Assembly: GCA_903869955.1 (NCBI GenBank)
Contig: CAIQBC010000214.1
Location: 1 to 33,837, forward strand
Direction: 5' to 3'
Length of the DNA: 33,837 bases
DNA from: an uncultured Opitutia bacterium
GTDB taxonomy: Bacteria; Verrucomicrobiota; Verrucomicrobiia; Opitutales; Opitutaceae
Made by a program: the position numbers and the translations under genes. The notes under the pieces are model-generated. The model made no database searches. It was not told the DNA's origin and saw only the letters and a list, made by a program, of their open reading frames with translations. This document shows, piece after piece, positions 18,676-25,599 of the stretch (the first letter of the stretch is position 1; every line of letters begins with the position of its first letter).

Positions 18676-20412
18676 TCAGTTATCCGGCAACGGCTTGAAT
18701 TCCTGCGGACCGCCGACAGACTTGATCCCCGCGGTACTGCGGTCGGGAGTCGGATACTGTGGGACTTTGCGGTCGGTTGACGGGGCATGCGGGAGCGGGG
18801 CGCGGGGCGGCGGCGTGTTATGCAGCAGGTGATTCACGGTGTAGACGACCCACGGGCTAAGCAGCGCGTGCTGGCCGTCCTCGCTGACGACACCTTGCAG
18901 GCTCAAATCGTAAAGCCGCCAGGCCTCAAGGTTGTCGAGATGGAGTGTGACACGCCGATGGTCGGCGGACACGACGGCGGAGGTGATGCCCACGGGGTGG
19001 TTGTCGTATTTGTCGGAGCCGTATTGCTCATGGTAGTTGTAGAAATAGGTTTTCATCGCATAGGTCGCGACGTTGCCGGCGACTTCCGGGTTGACCGGGC
19101 GGGTGAACGCGAGCTCGAAACCGTCGTCGGTGAGCTTCATGGCGGACACCTCCAGCGGGACGACGCCTTTCCAGGTGATCCGTTGCAGCCCCTCTTCGCC
19201 CGTCCACGCGTCGTGAAACGTCTGGCCGACCCAGAGGCCGCCGTCGGCGTCGTAGGCGAGACGGTTGTTGCCGCGATGGAGCTTGGGATTGTTCGGGTCG
19301 TTGAGGAAGGGCGACACCGCACCCTGTGTCTGGCCATCCACTTCCTCCAGCATCACCCGCATGAGGTAGCGCTGGTTCATCTCACCAAGAAAGGCCTGTC
19401 CGGTGAACGGCCCGAATTTGCCGCCGGTGGTGTCCCAGAGGGGCTGTGTAGGCGAGTTGGACATGTCGCCGTAGGGAAACACAACGGCGGGCCGCGTGCG
19501 CAGCCTGTCGAGTTCCTCGACGGGCGTGTCAATGGCACTGATGCCACCCTGGAAATCCCCGCGCCAGATCAGGTCGGGCGCGTGGCCGTAGAAGTGATCC
19601 TGCTCGACCTTGTAGAGCGCGCTCGCGCCAACCCAGTCGCCCTGGTTGTCAATGGCGAAGAGCCGGTCCTGCGGGTCAATGCCGAGGCCGTTGGGCTCGC
19701 GAAAGCCGCACGCATACGGGATGGTCTTGCCATCGGGCGTGACCTTCATGATCCAGCCGCGATACGCCACGGGCGAAGTCATCCGGCTCACCGCGCCGAG
19801 CGGGTTGAAGAAGCCGCGCACCTCGTTCGTGAGCGTCATCGGCCGGGCTTGATTCGAGCCGGTGCCGAGACTGTAGAATAGGTTGCCCTGCCGATCCATC
19901 ACCGGTCCAAAGGCAAACTCGGCATAGTTAGTCGAGAGGCCGAAGTGGTCGGATTTGGTCTGAAAGCGGTCGGCCTTGCCATCGCCGTCCGTGTCCACCA
20001 GCAGCGTCAGTTCAGGCATCTGCATGACGAGCAGTTCACGGTTGCTCAGCGGCAGCACGCCCAGCGGCGTGTGCAGACCTTCGGCAAAGGTTGACCATTT
20101 CTTGGTCTTTGGGTCATAGAAGCACACCCAACCCCGGTAAAACGTGACGACCACACGACCGTCGGGCATGACGGCGAGTCCGTCCACGGAGAGGCTGCCC
20201 TCGGGCAGCGGGATGGTCTCGACCTCGAAGTAGGGGGAAAAATTGCTGGGTGCGTCGCTGGCAACCAGGGGTACCCGGTTGGGAGTGCCGCGGGCCGCGT
20301 GCGCCGGGCTGGTGGTGACGGCACCCAGCGTAAGGGCGATCACGACGGAAAAAAGGCGGCCAGCGGGGAGACGACTCGGGCGGGCGGAAAAAGAAATGAC
20401 GGAAGAAGTCAT
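18676..20412 (-). CDS. Secreted beta-propeller protein (glucose/sorbosone dehydrogenase/NHL-like)
   Basis: Signal-like N-terminus; 'LPEGSLSVDGLAVMPDGRVVVTFYRGWVCFYDPKTKKW', 'DTDGDGKADRFQTKSDHFGLSTNYAEFAFGPVMDRQGNLFYSLGT', 'ACGFREPNGLGIDPQDRLFAIDNQGDW', 'RGNNRLAYDADGGLWVGQTFHD'. Confidence 0.8.
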   Translation of the reverse strand: MTSSVISFSARPSRLPAGRLFSVVIALTLGAVTTSPAHAARGTPNRVPLVASDAPSNFSPYFEVETIPLPEGSLSVDGLAVMPDGRVVVTFYRGWVCFYDPKTKKWSTFAEGLHTPLGVLPLSNRELLVMQMPELTLLVDTDGDGKADRFQTKSDHFGLSTNYAEFAFGPVMDRQGNLFYSLGTGSNQARPMTLTNEVRGFFNPLGAVSRMTSPVAYRGWIMKVTPDGKTIPYACGFREPNGLGIDPQDRLFAIDNQGDWVGASALYKVEQDHFYGHAPDLIWRGDFQGGISAIDTPVEELDRLRTRPAVVFPYGDMSNSPTQPLWDTTGGKFGPFTGQAFLGEMNQRYLMRVMLEEVDGQTQGAVSPFLNDPNNPKLHRGNNRLAYDADGGLWVGQTFHDAWTGEEGLQRITWKGVVPLEVSAMKLTDDGFELAFTRPVNPEVAGNVATYAMKTYFYNYHEQYGSDKYDNHPVGITSAVVSADHRRVTLHLDNLEAWRLYDLSLQGVVSEDGQHALLSPWVVYTVNHLLHNTPPPRAPLPHAPSTDRKVPQYPTPDRSTAGIKSVGGPQEFKPLPDN

Positions 20413-21647
20413 GGGGTGGAGCTGACGGGGATAGGGCGAATGATGGTGAATTCTTTGGCGGCTTCGCCAGCGAACCTATAAAATGCGCCGGCCTTCGTGC
20501 CACTCGGCGCGTCCAGGCCCGCATTCTCAGCCGGAATGGCGAACCACACGGTGGCCTCTCCGCTTGTGCGGAAACGTCGGACGAGCTTGCCGTCCCTGAC
20601 CTCGGCGCGCTCACGCACCGTTACACCGTCCACCACGGTTTCGAATTCCGGGATACGTTGCGCGTCCAGGGTGTAGCCTTTGAAATCTATCTGCTTTGGC
20701 TCGGTCCCCGGAGCGGCCCCGAGGCGGAGCGGGTAGGCGGGCTCGGTGTAAAAGACCTCACCCTGAATTTTTGCCAGTCCGCGCTCGGCGGCGGCGGGCA
20801 TGGTCATATAACCGCCCGTCCACGCGTAGCGAAAGCGCCCCGCCCCGGCGTCCCAGCAATACGACACGCCGCCGGGCAGTTGCACGGCAATGGCGGCCGG
20901 GCCGGAATTCGGCATGAACGCGCGCATCGTGACGGCACGAGCCGCAGTCGCCGCAGTCGGGGTTCCGGCATGCTGGGCATGGTCCATCCCGTCCGGACTG
21001 GTGGCGGGAGCGCCCGTGCGCGCTGGCGGCTTGGGCAGTGAGACCGGATTCATCACGGCCGGCTGGGGAGTGTTGGTCACAATCATCGTGCCAAACATCA
21101 GGATGCCGTGGCCGGGAAAGGTGCAGACATACGGATACTCACCAAGCGCCGCCGGGGCGGTGAGTTTCAGTGTGACGGACTGGCCGGCTGGCACGACCTT
21201 TGACGCCCAAAGCACATCAGGCGAGTCCGGAACGAAATTTTTTTCCGCCGCGCCCGTCGCCAGCGCCAAGGCAGCCTGAACCACGCGCTCCCGCGAGCCG
21301 GGCTTCACCACAACGAAATTATGCAGCATCTCATCGTAGTTGCTGAACACCACCTCGACATCCGAGCCGGGCCGCACCGAAAACGCGCCGGTGTCAAAAC
21401 GCAGTCCCGGCAGCGTACCGATATGGATGACCTCGGTCGCGCCAGCGGCACCGACCGCACCGGGCAGCGACGCCAGCGCAGCGGCGAGCAGAAACAAATA
21501 GCGTACCCAGGCTCTGGTCGGATACCGCTGAGAGAAAACGGAGCAGGGAGCCGAAAAAACGCAAATACCGGGGTGCATCCAACCAATTTGGCAGGGAAAC
21601 CACCGGCAGGGAAAGTTCAAACTCACCGCGTCCGGCGCTTGCGGCAC
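20409..21647 (-). CDS. Exported azurin/auracyanin-type cupredoxin fused to an uncharacterized C-terminal domain
   Basis: 'FSNYDEMLHNFVVVKPGSRE' and 'YPYVCTFPGHGILMFGTMIVTN' (azurin-type Cys/His/Met site); alternative start ATG 21578; 4-bp ATGA overlap with the downstream beta-propeller gene. Confidence 0.88.
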   Translation of the reverse strand: MPQAPDAVSLNFPCRWFPCQIGWMHPGICVFSAPCSVFSQRYPTRAWVRYLFLLAAALASLPGAVGAAGATEVIHIGTLPGLRFDTGAFSVRPGSDVEVVFSNYDEMLHNFVVVKPGSRERVVQAALALATGAAEKNFVPDSPDVLWASKVVPAGQSVTLKLTAPAALGEYPYVCTFPGHGILMFGTMIVTNTPQPAVMNPVSLPKPPARTGAPATSPDGMDHAQHAGTPTAATAARAVTMRAFMPNSGPAAIAVQLPGGVSYCWDAGAGRFRYAWTGGYMTMPAAAERGLAKIQGEVFYTEPAYPLRLGAAPGTEPKQIDFKGYTLDAQRIPEFETVVDGVTVRERAEVRDGKLVRRFRTSGEATVWFAIPAENAGLDAPSGTKAGAFYRFAGEAAKEFTIIRPIPVSSTP

Positions 21648-21731
21648 AAGGACCTATCACCGAGAGTAGAGCGAATCGCAGATCAGATTTTTATGGTTTC
21701 ACCGCCCTCTCGCTAGGTGCAAGCTTCACCC

Positions 21732-22919
21732 ATGTCCGCCCCGTCAGTTGCAACCACCGCGTCCGCCGCCCGCGCAGAGGCCCGCCTTGAGGGCGACTGC
21801 ATGCACGTCGTGCTCGGCGGGCATTGGCGCATCACCCAGCCGCGTCCGGCCTGGGCTGACATCGTGGCCCGTGCCATGGCCGACGCGAAAACCAGCGCCA
21901 ACGCGGCGCACCCGCCCGCACCGAGGTGCGTGCGGCTCGCATTCGCCGACGACCTCGCGGGCTGGGACAGCGCGCTGGTGATGTTCGCCGGCGAGATTTT
22001 GCGCTGGAGTCGGGGGCACGACGCGTATTGCGACTTCGCCGCGTTGCCCGAGCCAGTGCGGCGGCTAGCTGACCAGCTCACTGGCGCGGCGGAGCAGGTG
22101 GACGCACCGCCGCCCGAGCCGGCGCAAAATTTTCTCGCGATGCTCGGCCATGCGGCGACAGACGTGTGGCGCAAAGCCGGCGAGATCGCCGCCTTCGTAG
22201 GCGAGTGCGCGCTGGGCGCGGCCCGCGTTGCACGCGATCCGCGCAAATTCCGGTGGCGCGACTGGCTCGACGAGATGCAACAGTGCGGCGCGATGGCGCT
22301 GCCCATCGTGGGCCTCATCGGTTTCCTCGTTGGCGTGACGCTCGCCTACACCGGCGCGATCGTGCTGCGCCAATACGGCGGCGACATCTATCTCGCCGAC
22401 CTCATCGGGCTGGCGATGGTGCGGGAGATGGGTGCCGTGATGACGGCAGTCGTGCTGGCGGGCCGCACCGGCGCGGCGTTCGCGGCCACGCTCGGCAACA
22501 TGAAGGCCGGCGAAGAAATTGACGCGCTCACGACGTTTGGCATCCGCCCGGTGGACTTTCTCGTGCTGCCGCGAGTCGCGGCGTTGGGCGTGATGATGCC
22601 GCTGCTCGCGCTTTATGCCAACGCGCTTGGCGTACTCGGCGGCATGACCGTGTCCTACGGGCTGCTGAATATCTCGCCCACCGCGTACTGGCACGAAATG
22701 CTCGCGACGGTAACGCAGCGATCCATCAATGTCGGCCTGATCAAGGCCGTGGCGTTCGGTCTGATCGTCGGTCTGGCCGGCTGCCTGCGCGGGCTGGAGG
22801 CCGAGCGCAGCGCGGCGGGTGTGGGCCGCGCAGCGACGTCGGCGGTGGTCACCGCTCTCCTGTTGCTCGTCCTCGCGGACGCGTTTTTTGCCGTGGCCTT
22901 CAACGCGCTCGGCTGGTGA
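21732..22919 (+). CDS. mlaE: MlaE-family ABC transporter permease with N-terminal extension
   Basis: 'VGVTLAYTGAIVLRQYGGDIYLADLIGLAMVREMGAVMTAVVLAGRTGAAFAATLGNMKAGEEIDALTTFGI' is MlaE; about 130-aa N-terminal soluble region; start ATG 21732. Confidence 0.92.
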   Translation: MSAPSVATTASAARAEARLEGDCMHVVLGGHWRITQPRPAWADIVARAMADAKTSANAAHPPAPRCVRLAFADDLAGWDSALVMFAGEILRWSRGHDAYCDFAALPEPVRRLADQLTGAAEQVDAPPPEPAQNFLAMLGHAATDVWRKAGEIAAFVGECALGAARVARDPRKFRWRDWLDEMQQCGAMALPIVGLIGFLVGVTLAYTGAIVLRQYGGDIYLADLIGLAMVREMGAVMTAVVLAGRTGAAFAATLGNMKAGEEIDALTTFGIRPVDFLVLPRVAALGVMMPLLALYANALGVLGGMTVSYGLLNISPTAYWHEMLATVTQRSINVGLIKAVAFGLIVGLAGCLRGLEAERSAAGVGRAATSAVVTALLLLVLADAFFAVAFNALGW

Positions 22920-23025
22920 AAAATTTCGACACAAATGAACCCGAAAAAACGCCTATTTCTAAAAACTTGCGCTAGCCAGCTTTGTCCTTCGCGTTCATTT
23001 GCATCCAATCGCGGTTAAACATCTC

Positions 23026-23796
23026 ATGTCCGCGCCCGATCCATCCACCCCCGCCATCGAGGTCAGCACCCTCGAATGCCGCTACGGAGACACGGTCGTA
23101 CTGCGCGACGTATCGTTCACGGTGCGGCGCGGAGAGATTTTTTTCGTCATCGGAGGCTCGGGCTGCGGCAAAAGCACGCTGCTGCGCAACCTGATCGGCC
23201 TGCATCCGCCAGCCGCCGGCACGGTAAAATTTTTCGGTGAGTCGTTTGCTGACGCCGGCGAGGCGCGGCGGCGCGAACTGCTGCGCACGTTTGGCGTGCT
23301 CTACCAAGGTGGCGCGCTGTGGAGCTCGCTCACCCTGCGCGAAAACGTCGCCCTGCCGCTCGAGGAATACACGCCGCTCACTGCCGCTGAGCGCGACGAA
23401 CTGGTGGCGCTCAAGCTCGCGCAGGTCGGCCTGACCGGCTACGGCGACCACTATCCGGCGGAGATCAGCGGCGGCATGAGAAAACGCGCCGGCCTGGCCC
23501 GCGCCCTCGCGCTCGACCCTGCGGTGGTGTTTTTCGACGAGCCCTCCGCCGGCCTCGACCCGCTCACCTCGCGCAGCCTCGACGAGCTCATCCGGCAGAT
23601 CCGCGACACGCTCGGCACGACGTGCGTGGTCGTGTCACACGAGCTGGCGTCCATCTTCGCCATCGCCGACCGGGTGCTCATGCTCGACAAATCCGCAAAA
23701 GGGGTGGTCGCCGAGGGCAACCCCCACAAATTGGCCAAGCCCGGGGCGGACGCGAGGGCGCGGGAGTTTCTCACCCGCGGCGAGAACCAACCTTGA
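23026..23796 (+). CDS. mlaF: MlaF-family ABC transporter ATP-binding protein
   Basis: Walker A GGSGCGKSTLLRN; signature EISGGMRKRAGLARALALDPAVVFFDEPSAGLDP. Confidence 0.93.
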   Translation: MSAPDPSTPAIEVSTLECRYGDTVVLRDVSFTVRRGEIFFVIGGSGCGKSTLLRNLIGLHPPAAGTVKFFGESFADAGEARRRELLRTFGVLYQGGALWSSLTLRENVALPLEEYTPLTAAERDELVALKLAQVGLTGYGDHYPAEISGGMRKRAGLARALALDPAVVFFDEPSAGLDPLTSRSLDELIRQIRDTLGTTCVVVSHELASIFAIADRVLMLDKSAKGVVAEGNPHKLAKPGADARAREFLTRGENQP

Positions 23797-23842
23797 CCAT
23801 TCGCACCACGCCACGGATTCTCCACGCTGCGCTCCTCTTCCC

Positions 23843-24907
23843 GTGAAAACCAAGATCAGCCCCTCCGTCATTGGCCTGTTTGTGCTGGGCGCGCTGCTGC
23901 TCGCGGGCGTGGGACTGGTCACGTTCGGCAACGTCAACCTCTTCACCAAGCCGCAGCGGTTCGTGGTGTTTTTTGACGAGTCCGTCCACGGCCTCGATCT
24001 CGGCTCGGCGGTGAAACTCCGCGGTGTGCGCGTGGGCCGCGTGGCCGACATCCGGGTGCGCTATGACGCCGCGCGCCAGCACTCCGAAGTCGAGGTGGTC
24101 TGCGAACTCAACCGCGACACCATCGCCGACGCCTCCGGCGGAACGCTCAACGTGACTGACCGCGCCGAGCTGAAAAAATTCGTGGACGAGGGCCTGCGCG
24201 CACAGCTCGGCGTGCTCGGCCTCGCCACCGGGCTGCTCTTCGTCGAGCTGGATTTTCTCAACCCGCGCCAGTTCCCCGCCGTCCGCTCGACTTTCGCCGA
24301 TGACACCTACGCGGCCATCCCCGCCGTCCGCTCGACCATCGCTGAATTCCAGGCCAGCCTCAACGAGATCCTCGCCAAACTGAAAGACGTGGACATCGCA
24401 ACCCTCTCGCGTGAAGCAACCGGCATCATTGTGGACGCGCGTCGGCAACTGAACGCACTCGATCTCCCCCAGCTCGTCAACGAGTCCACCCAAACCGTCC
24501 GCGCCGTGCGCGTGCTGGCCAGCGACCCCGCCTGGCAGTCCACGCTCGCCAACCTCAACGGCACCATCACCGATCTGCGCAGCGCGATCGCCCACCTCGA
24601 CGCCCAAGTCCTGCCCACGGGAGAAAAACTGGGGGAGATTCTCGCGCAGGCGAAGTCGGCCGTGGATGCCTTCAATGCCACCGCACAAACCGTGCGCCAG
24701 TTTATCGCCGCGCAGCAAGGTCTCGGAGCCGACGCCGATCTCGCGGTAAAACGCCTCGCCGAGGCCGCCGACTCCGTGCGGCGCCTGGCGGAATTTTTGG
24801 AACGCAACCCCGCCGCACTCCTCACCGGACGCAAGTCAGCCGAGCCGATGGCGCCGGCAACGCCCGCATCCAGCCCCACAAGCGGCCCCACCAACCGCCG
24901 TCCATGA
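23843..24907 (+). CDS. mlaD: MCE/MlaD-domain protein
   Basis: GTG start; 'VIGLFVLGALLLAGVGLVTFG...RFVVFFDESVHGLDLGSAVKLRGVRVGRVADI', MCE domain followed by a long C-terminal helical region. Confidence 0.92.
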   Translation: MKTKISPSVIGLFVLGALLLAGVGLVTFGNVNLFTKPQRFVVFFDESVHGLDLGSAVKLRGVRVGRVADIRVRYDAARQHSEVEVVCELNRDTIADASGGTLNVTDRAELKKFVDEGLRAQLGVLGLATGLLFVELDFLNPRQFPAVRSTFADDTYAAIPAVRSTIAEFQASLNEILAKLKDVDIATLSREATGIIVDARRQLNALDLPQLVNESTQTVRAVRVLASDPAWQSTLANLNGTITDLRSAIAHLDAQVLPTGEKLGEILAQAKSAVDAFNATAQTVRQFIAAQQGLGADADLAVKRLAEAADSVRRLAEFLERNPAALLTGRKSAEPMAPATPASSPTSGPTNRRP

Positions 24908-25599
24908 CGCCCGCGACCGCCAGATCCGATTTCGTCGCAGGGGCGCAGACTGGGCTAACCCTCGGATCCCGAACTGGGCGCAGAAAGCCTGCGTTCCTGC
25001 ACGGCCTGCTGCTCGCCGCACTGCTGCTCACCGGTTGCCACATTTTGCCCGCGCCGCAGGCCGACCCGGCGCGATTCTACCAGATCGGCGTAAAATTTAC
25101 CGCCCTGCCGGCGTCAAACGTCAGCGGCACTTTAAAAATCGGCCTGCGTCCGGTCGAACTGCCGGCGTATTTGCAGAACCGCGCGATGGTTGTGCGCAAC
25201 GGCACCGAAATCCGTTACGAGGACAACCACCGTTGGGCCGAGCCCCTCGATGAAGCCATTGCGCGTATCGTCCGCACCCGCCTGTTTGCCGCTGCAACGG
25301 TCGCGGCGGTGCAGCTCGCGCCATTTCCCATTGATGAGCCGCGCGATTTTGACGTGACCGTACGCGTGCTTACCTGCGAAGGAGCGCGCAGCGCAGACGG
25401 CAAGGGGACGGTGCAGTTCACCGCCATTGCCGAGATCACACGGAGCGACGCCAGCCACACGGTCGTGTGGCGGAAAAATATTCTCGCGCCTGCTGCGGCG
25501 TGGGACGGGAAGGATTTCTCCGCGCTCGCGGGCCTGCTTGACCTCGCAATCTCCACGACCGGCGAGGACATCGCGGCCGCGTTGCCGGCCAAAAAATAA
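24904..25599 (+). CDS. ABC-type transport auxiliary lipoprotein (PqiC-like)
   Basis: Lipobox 'LLAALLLTGCHILP'; 'ARFYQIGV...LKIGLRPVELPAYLQNRAMVVRNGTEIRYEDNHRWAEPLDEAIARIVRTRL' is PqiC-like; ATGA overlap with mlaD. Confidence 0.88.
   Translation: MTPATARSDFVAGAQTGLTLGSRTGRRKPAFLHGLLLAALLLTGCHILPAPQADPARFYQIGVKFTALPASNVSGTLKIGLRPVELPAYLQNRAMVVRNGTEIRYEDNHRWAEPLDEAIARIVRTRLFAAATVAAVQLAPFPIDEPRDFDVTVRVLTCEGARSADGKGTVQFTAIAEITRSDASHTVVWRKNILAPAAAWDGKDFSALAGLLDLAISTTGEDIAAALPAKK

Follow-up and report, generated by a model that had tools for sequence, protein, structure and literature searches.

The window, by which we mean the whole stretch of DNA analyzed (33,837 nucleotides), comes from a 2.84-Mb genome assembly that is 89% complete and is most closely related, among named genomes, to uncultured Opitutae recovered from metagenomes. 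Two of its minus-strand genes are joined by a 4-base overlap of stop and start, with TCC ACC CC[ATGA]CT as the end of gene 1 and the start of gene 2. The features of the pair are the following.

20409..21578, minus strand: gene 1, predicted exported protein with a cupredoxin and a DUF6797-like domain (389 aa when read from the likely ATG)
21066..21455, minus strand: azurin/auracyanin-type cupredoxin domain (Pfam PF00127, Copper-bind) with its ligands
21321-21323, 21123-21125, 21108-21110, and 21096-21098, minus strand: copper ligands His109, Cys175, His180, and Met184, respectively (numbering of the 412-aa frame)
20502..20939, minus strand: core of the DUF6797-like domain, which constantly accompanies the propeller
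20409..20412, minus strand: ATGA stop/start overlap of genes 1 and 2
18676..20412, minus strand: gene 2, predicted exported DUF7133/GSDH-fold beta-propeller (578 aa, CxxCH absent)
18826..20229, minus strand: core of the propeller domain

Gene structure and domain composition

The open frame of gene 1 extends to a GTG at 21647 (20409-21647, minus strand; 412 aa). The likely start is the ATG at 21578 and not this GTG, because orthologues (e.g., L064 and L067) begin at the same MHP.. position. Both genes show dN/dS values of 0.08 to 0.22 against their congeners, indicating purifying selection, so they are real genes and not chance open frames. The pair is flanked by cinA on one side and by a Mla-type transport operon on the other, both on the opposite strand, and we found no additional partner genes for it within the window. 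The transport operon is divergent (21717-25599, plus strand) and codes for MlaE, an ABC ATPase, MlaD, and an auxiliary lipoprotein.

The gene 1 protein consists of a signal sequence, a cupredoxin domain, and a second domain. The cupredoxin passes the Pfam Copper-bind model (34.4 bits; cut-off, 21.2), and its closest solved structure is auracyanin A (4.6e-13), while its score against the azurin equivalog TIGR02695 (35.3 bits; cut-off, 105.1) indicates that it is not an azurin sensu stricto. The preliminary description had proposed the ATGA overlap and an azurin copper site made up of CTFPGHGILM and an upstream His; both are there, the site is complete, and the ligand motif is kept in all 33 cupredoxins of the sampled pairs. 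Two more azurin-like cupredoxins are encoded in the same genome (L002, G000:C175, and L003, G000:C32) and are possible soluble electron acceptors.

The second domain had been described as spanning roughly 230 aa and as impossible to assign to a family, and neither statement holds. Its length is about 150 to 180 aa, and, although on its own it has no match in Pfam, NCBIfam, or the PDB, with no match to DUF6797 (PF20601; gathering threshold, 24.9) either, 19 of 38 relatives match that family at an E value of 0.1 or better (best, 3.4e-7). Through these relatives the domain can be assigned, by sequence, as a distant relative of DUF6797. A literature search found no paper naming DUF6797 or DUF7133. 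One other DUF6797-like protein (L072:9077-10675, minus strand) carries an N-terminal ThuA-like domain, with a Pfam match below the cut-off.

Gene 2 codes for a signal sequence followed by a propeller, and a search of the protein for the CxxCH heme motif found none, in agreement with the earlier view of an exported propeller without heme. It passes DUF7133 (PF23500; 30.9 bits; gathering threshold, 27), a family matched by 37 of 41 relatives, and falls below the cut-off of the PVC-type heme-binding CxxCH family TIGR02604 (35.6 bits; cut-off, 122.2). The predicted structure (pLDDT, 87; pTM, 0.87) has GSDH-fold sugar dehydrogenases as its top 20 PDB matches, mostly PQQ enzymes and some of them PQQ bound, at 11 to 18% identity to the solved matches; the structural matches also include lactonases of the propeller type and propellers with a binding role (SMP30, RPA3624, and HHIP). 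A profile comparison with canonical GSDH gave a probability of 98.8 and an E value of 1e-16 over 279 columns. The proposed likeness to glucose/sorbosone dehydrogenases thus stands for the fold, by model and profile, and not for membership in the Pfam GSDH family (PF07995), where the score of 17.7 bits lies below the gathering threshold of 25. A PDB profile search was also tried as a means of identifying the propeller and was discarded, as designed "Pizza" propellers dominated it and it yielded nothing of use beyond a weak sGDH register.

Conservation of the pair and exchange of carriers

All the locus counts given here rest on open frames and not on curated genes. The class-wide sample of 60 loci was picked by the DUF6797-like domain only and is therefore not biased toward pairs, whereas the order-level and named-genome samples were picked via the propeller and are biased in that direction. 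In 59 of the 60 class-wide loci a recognized propeller was encoded by the adjacent gene or formed part of the DUF6797-like protein itself, L164 being the only locus without it; the propeller of L132 is cut by a contig end and is still recognizable. Congeners carry the same pair, with two copies in G003, and searches with profiles built from both proteins showed such adjacency to be the rule. In six proteins (L094, L100, L141, L186, L188, and L190) the DUF6797-like domain is fused to the propeller, and L141 contains the cupredoxin, the DUF6797-like domain, and the propeller in a single frame of 875 aa that shares 54% and about 60% identity with the two window proteins. The predicted structure of a fused relative (pLDDT, 88.8; pTM, 0.72) confirms the propeller and cupredoxin folds. 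A further 75 loci from named genomes, mostly of Bacteroidota and Verrucomicrobiota and picked via the propeller, include 61 with the cupredoxin layout of the window and 12 with heme; the cultured Bacteroidota with the pair include Larkinella, Spirosoma, Runella, and Emticicia. The pairing, for which a neighborhood survey had been suggested, is conserved well beyond one genome, within the order and the class and also in other phyla.

The electron carrier is the part that varies. It can be a cupredoxin, a single heme, or five hemes, and copper and heme occupy the same place across relatives, which bears out the idea that copper here stands in for cytochrome c. Among 99 loci, the carrier lies on the DUF6797-like partner in most (heme in 61, cupredoxin in 19) and at the C terminus of the propeller in others (cupredoxin in 10, heme in 5). 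Not one of the 99 combines two kinds of carrier in one pair. Four have no recorded carrier, and three of these are explained by contig ends or by the length filter: the cupredoxin of L066 is located at the opposite contig end, the heme motif of L076 is in a frame dropped by the filter, and the locus of L132 is cut by a contig end. As a control, CxxCH was found in only 6 of 389 neighboring genes. Such a pattern, in which the kinds of carrier exclude one another and the position is free to vary, would be expected if the enzyme requires a single electron acceptor of whichever kind. Of the two domains of gene 1, the DUF6797-like one and not the cupredoxin constantly accompanies the propeller, and the conserved pairing together with the carrier exchange supports a dedicated electron transfer pair with interchangeable carriers.

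Some of these loci have features of their own. A recurrent architecture (L080, L084, L096, L097, L136, L144, and others) joins a pentaheme cytochrome (five CxxCH motifs) to the DUF6797-like domain, with PA14 often present as well. The contig of L066 (G004:C76, 5,708 bases) starts close to the DUF6797-like domain and stops past the cupredoxin, apparently within the same gene, as if it were circular or a collapsed tandem copy. No carrier was found in the DUF6797-like/propeller fusion at L190:3317-5710 (minus strand), whose acceptor may be a separate gene.

Active site and cofactor

For the comparison with soluble glucose dehydrogenase (sGDH), we take His144 to be its catalytic base, Arg228 to bind the PQQ carboxylate, and Asn229 and Gln231 to be PQQ ligands. 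Profile alignment places two residues of the window propeller opposite the first two.

19921..19923, minus strand: Ala164 (GCC), in place of a near-invariant histidine, aligned with sGDH His144
19699..19701, minus strand: Arg238, aligned with sGDH Arg228

Arg238 is kept in 61 of 61 relatives, and the weak sGDH register from the PDB profile search places it in the same way. The equivalents of Asn229 and Gln231 vary across the DUF7133 propeller family and are not kept. Position 164 is a histidine in 55 of 61 relatives (about 90%) and an alanine in the window; four congener copies have a serine, L141, L204, and L205 have an alanine, and all the other sampled relatives have the histidine, a distribution that requires at least two changes on the tree. 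The PQQ-site residues of the propeller, where the ligands had been singled out for checking, are thus represented by the Arg228 equivalent and not by Asn229, Gln231, or the catalytic histidine. At one locus (L063, G001:C7, 7075-10636), a single cupredoxin gene is followed by two tandem propeller genes, of which only one has the near-invariant histidine.

PqqC was found in none of the 66 genomes with the pair (46 plus 20 named Bacteroidota), while the same model reaches about 1e-100 in six genomes from a different family within the phylum; the search for PqqE gave only matches below the cut-off. We dropped the argument that the lack of pqq genes means a lack of PQQ, since canonical PQQ-type GSDHs with the full ligand set are present in some pair-bearing genomes without PqqC. 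Given these enzymes, the bacteria with the pair may scavenge PQQ. The pair could then be an ordinary, if distant, PQQ-dependent GSDH with an unusual acceptor domain, which would be a special case of the oxidoreductase module proposed below. The fold and profile similarity to GSDHs, the invariant Arg228 equivalent, and the canonical enzymes in PqqC-negative genomes all fit this explanation; the altered Asn229 and Gln231, the histidine lost in the window copy, the Pfam GSDH score below its cut-off, and the absence of PqqC from every pair-bearing genome do not, and we consider it unlikely.

A different possibility is that the propeller is no dehydrogenase and instead binds sugar or acts as a hydrolase resembling lactonases, with the carrier serving another redox step such as electron exchange with a partner enzyme. 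This would account for the missing histidine in the window clade, which is under strong purifying selection, and the matches to SMP30, RPA3624, and HHIP agree with it. Nevertheless, the best structural matches are GSDH-fold dehydrogenases, most relatives keep both the histidine and Arg238, and the rule of one carrier per pair is hard to account for without redox chemistry in the pair, so this role seems improbable to us. It is equally hard to favor a window pair that is a paralogue without catalysis, decayed or regulatory, the enzymes being the histidine-bearing paralogues of sister genomes G001 and G003: sister genomes do hold both His and Ser copies and a His copy may be missing from an assembly that is 89% complete, but dN/dS is 0.08 to 0.15, there is no frameshift, every other near-invariant residue and every copper ligand is kept, and the Ala form recurs in L141, which fuses all three domains, and in L204 and L205.

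A putative oxidoreductase module and its relation to known systems

A carbohydrate substrate is suggested by the domain company of the DUF6797-like partners, some of which bear 3-keto-disaccharide hydrolase (DUF1080), PA14, CBM6, CBM35, LamG, or ThuA-like domains; PA14-like domains are present on 26 of the 60 partners in the class-wide sample. The genes beyond the pair give a weak carbohydrate signal by their annotation, with little enrichment: there are sulfatases (5 of 89), Gfo/Idh (3), and 3-keto-disaccharide hydrolases (2) in a first set of neighbors and MeaB (6 of 76), sulfatases (3), and ThuA (2) in a second.

The explanation we favor, and hold to be somewhat more probable than its negation, is that both genes together encode a single extracytoplasmic oxidoreductase module. 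The subunit that handles the substrate, probably a carbohydrate or glycoside, would be the DUF7133 propeller, which shares its fold and some of its active site with PQQ-type sugar dehydrogenases. The DUF6797-like domain would be the obligate partner of this propeller, encoded separately in the window and fused to it elsewhere, and the cupredoxin tethered to this domain would act as a one-electron acceptor relaying electrons toward the respiratory chain, in the role that a mono- or pentaheme cytochrome c would have in relatives. We infer the physical complex, the electron transfer, and the sugar substrate from the evidence above. The original proposal of a dedicated, dehydrogenase-like redox pair survives in the conserved pairing, the replacement of cytochrome c by copper, and the sugar dehydrogenase fold; as a dehydrogenase using PQQ or another cofactor the propeller is putative, with the Arg228 equivalent in place and Asn229, Gln231, and the catalytic histidine not kept. 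A broader and rather speculative extension, which we think will probably not hold, is that DUF7133 and DUF6797-like proteins make up an unrecognized class of extracytoplasmic glycoside oxidoreductases in Verrucomicrobiota, Bacteroidota, and Planctomycetota, whose copper or heme acceptors plug in interchangeably and whose cofactor site is non-PQQ or altered, acting upstream of 3-ketoglycoside cleavage by DUF1080 proteins.

Two domains of unknown function are here tied into a unit that carries its own electron acceptor, and, as the pair occurs in many cultured species, its function is directly testable. If the pair oxidizes glycosides, it would help to account for the numerous redox proteins of PVC bacteria that still lack an explanation, and polysaccharides would have a second route of degradation, by oxidation.

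With azurin and auracyanin, the gene 1 protein shares the type 1 copper ligands, in the azurin spacing C-x4-H-x3-M; unlike them, its cupredoxin is joined to a DUF6797-like domain. A survey of azurins excluded proteins of >200 aa (PMC8779525), so fusions of this kind would be missed. Soluble PQQ sugar dehydrogenases (Acinetobacter sGDH, 1cq1/1c9u; aldose sugar dehydrogenase, 3das and 2g8s; fungal AA12, 6jt5 and 6h7t) have the propeller fold in common with gene 2, with the Arg228 equivalent invariant and the His144 equivalent present in most relatives; they differ in the residues at Asn229 and Gln231, in the histidine that the window copy lacks, and in having neither the constant DUF6797-like partner nor the dedicated carrier of the DUF7133 pair. 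The PVC-type heme-binding CxxCH proteins (TIGR02604) are alike in their DUF7133-type propeller, in their PVC hosts, and in the carrier fused in some relatives, whereas the window propeller has no CxxCH and scores below their cut-off. Cytochrome-CBM gene pairs without known function have been described from lake Verrucomicrobia (PMC5615132), and, in the part of that report considered here, the planctomycete-specific cytochrome c proteins resemble our case in forming conserved gene pairs of cytochrome and CBM with sulfatase neighbors and a function not known; their domains are different (PSCyt/PSD), and that part describes no copper alternative. Last, DUF1080 proteins work with lactose 3-dehydrogenase in other bacteria (PMC9007349). 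The likeness of the pair to this system of LacABC and the DUF1080 3-ketoglycoside hydrolase is one of proposed role, that is, extracytoplasmic sugar oxidation, with DUF1080 domains found also on some of the DUF6797-like partners.
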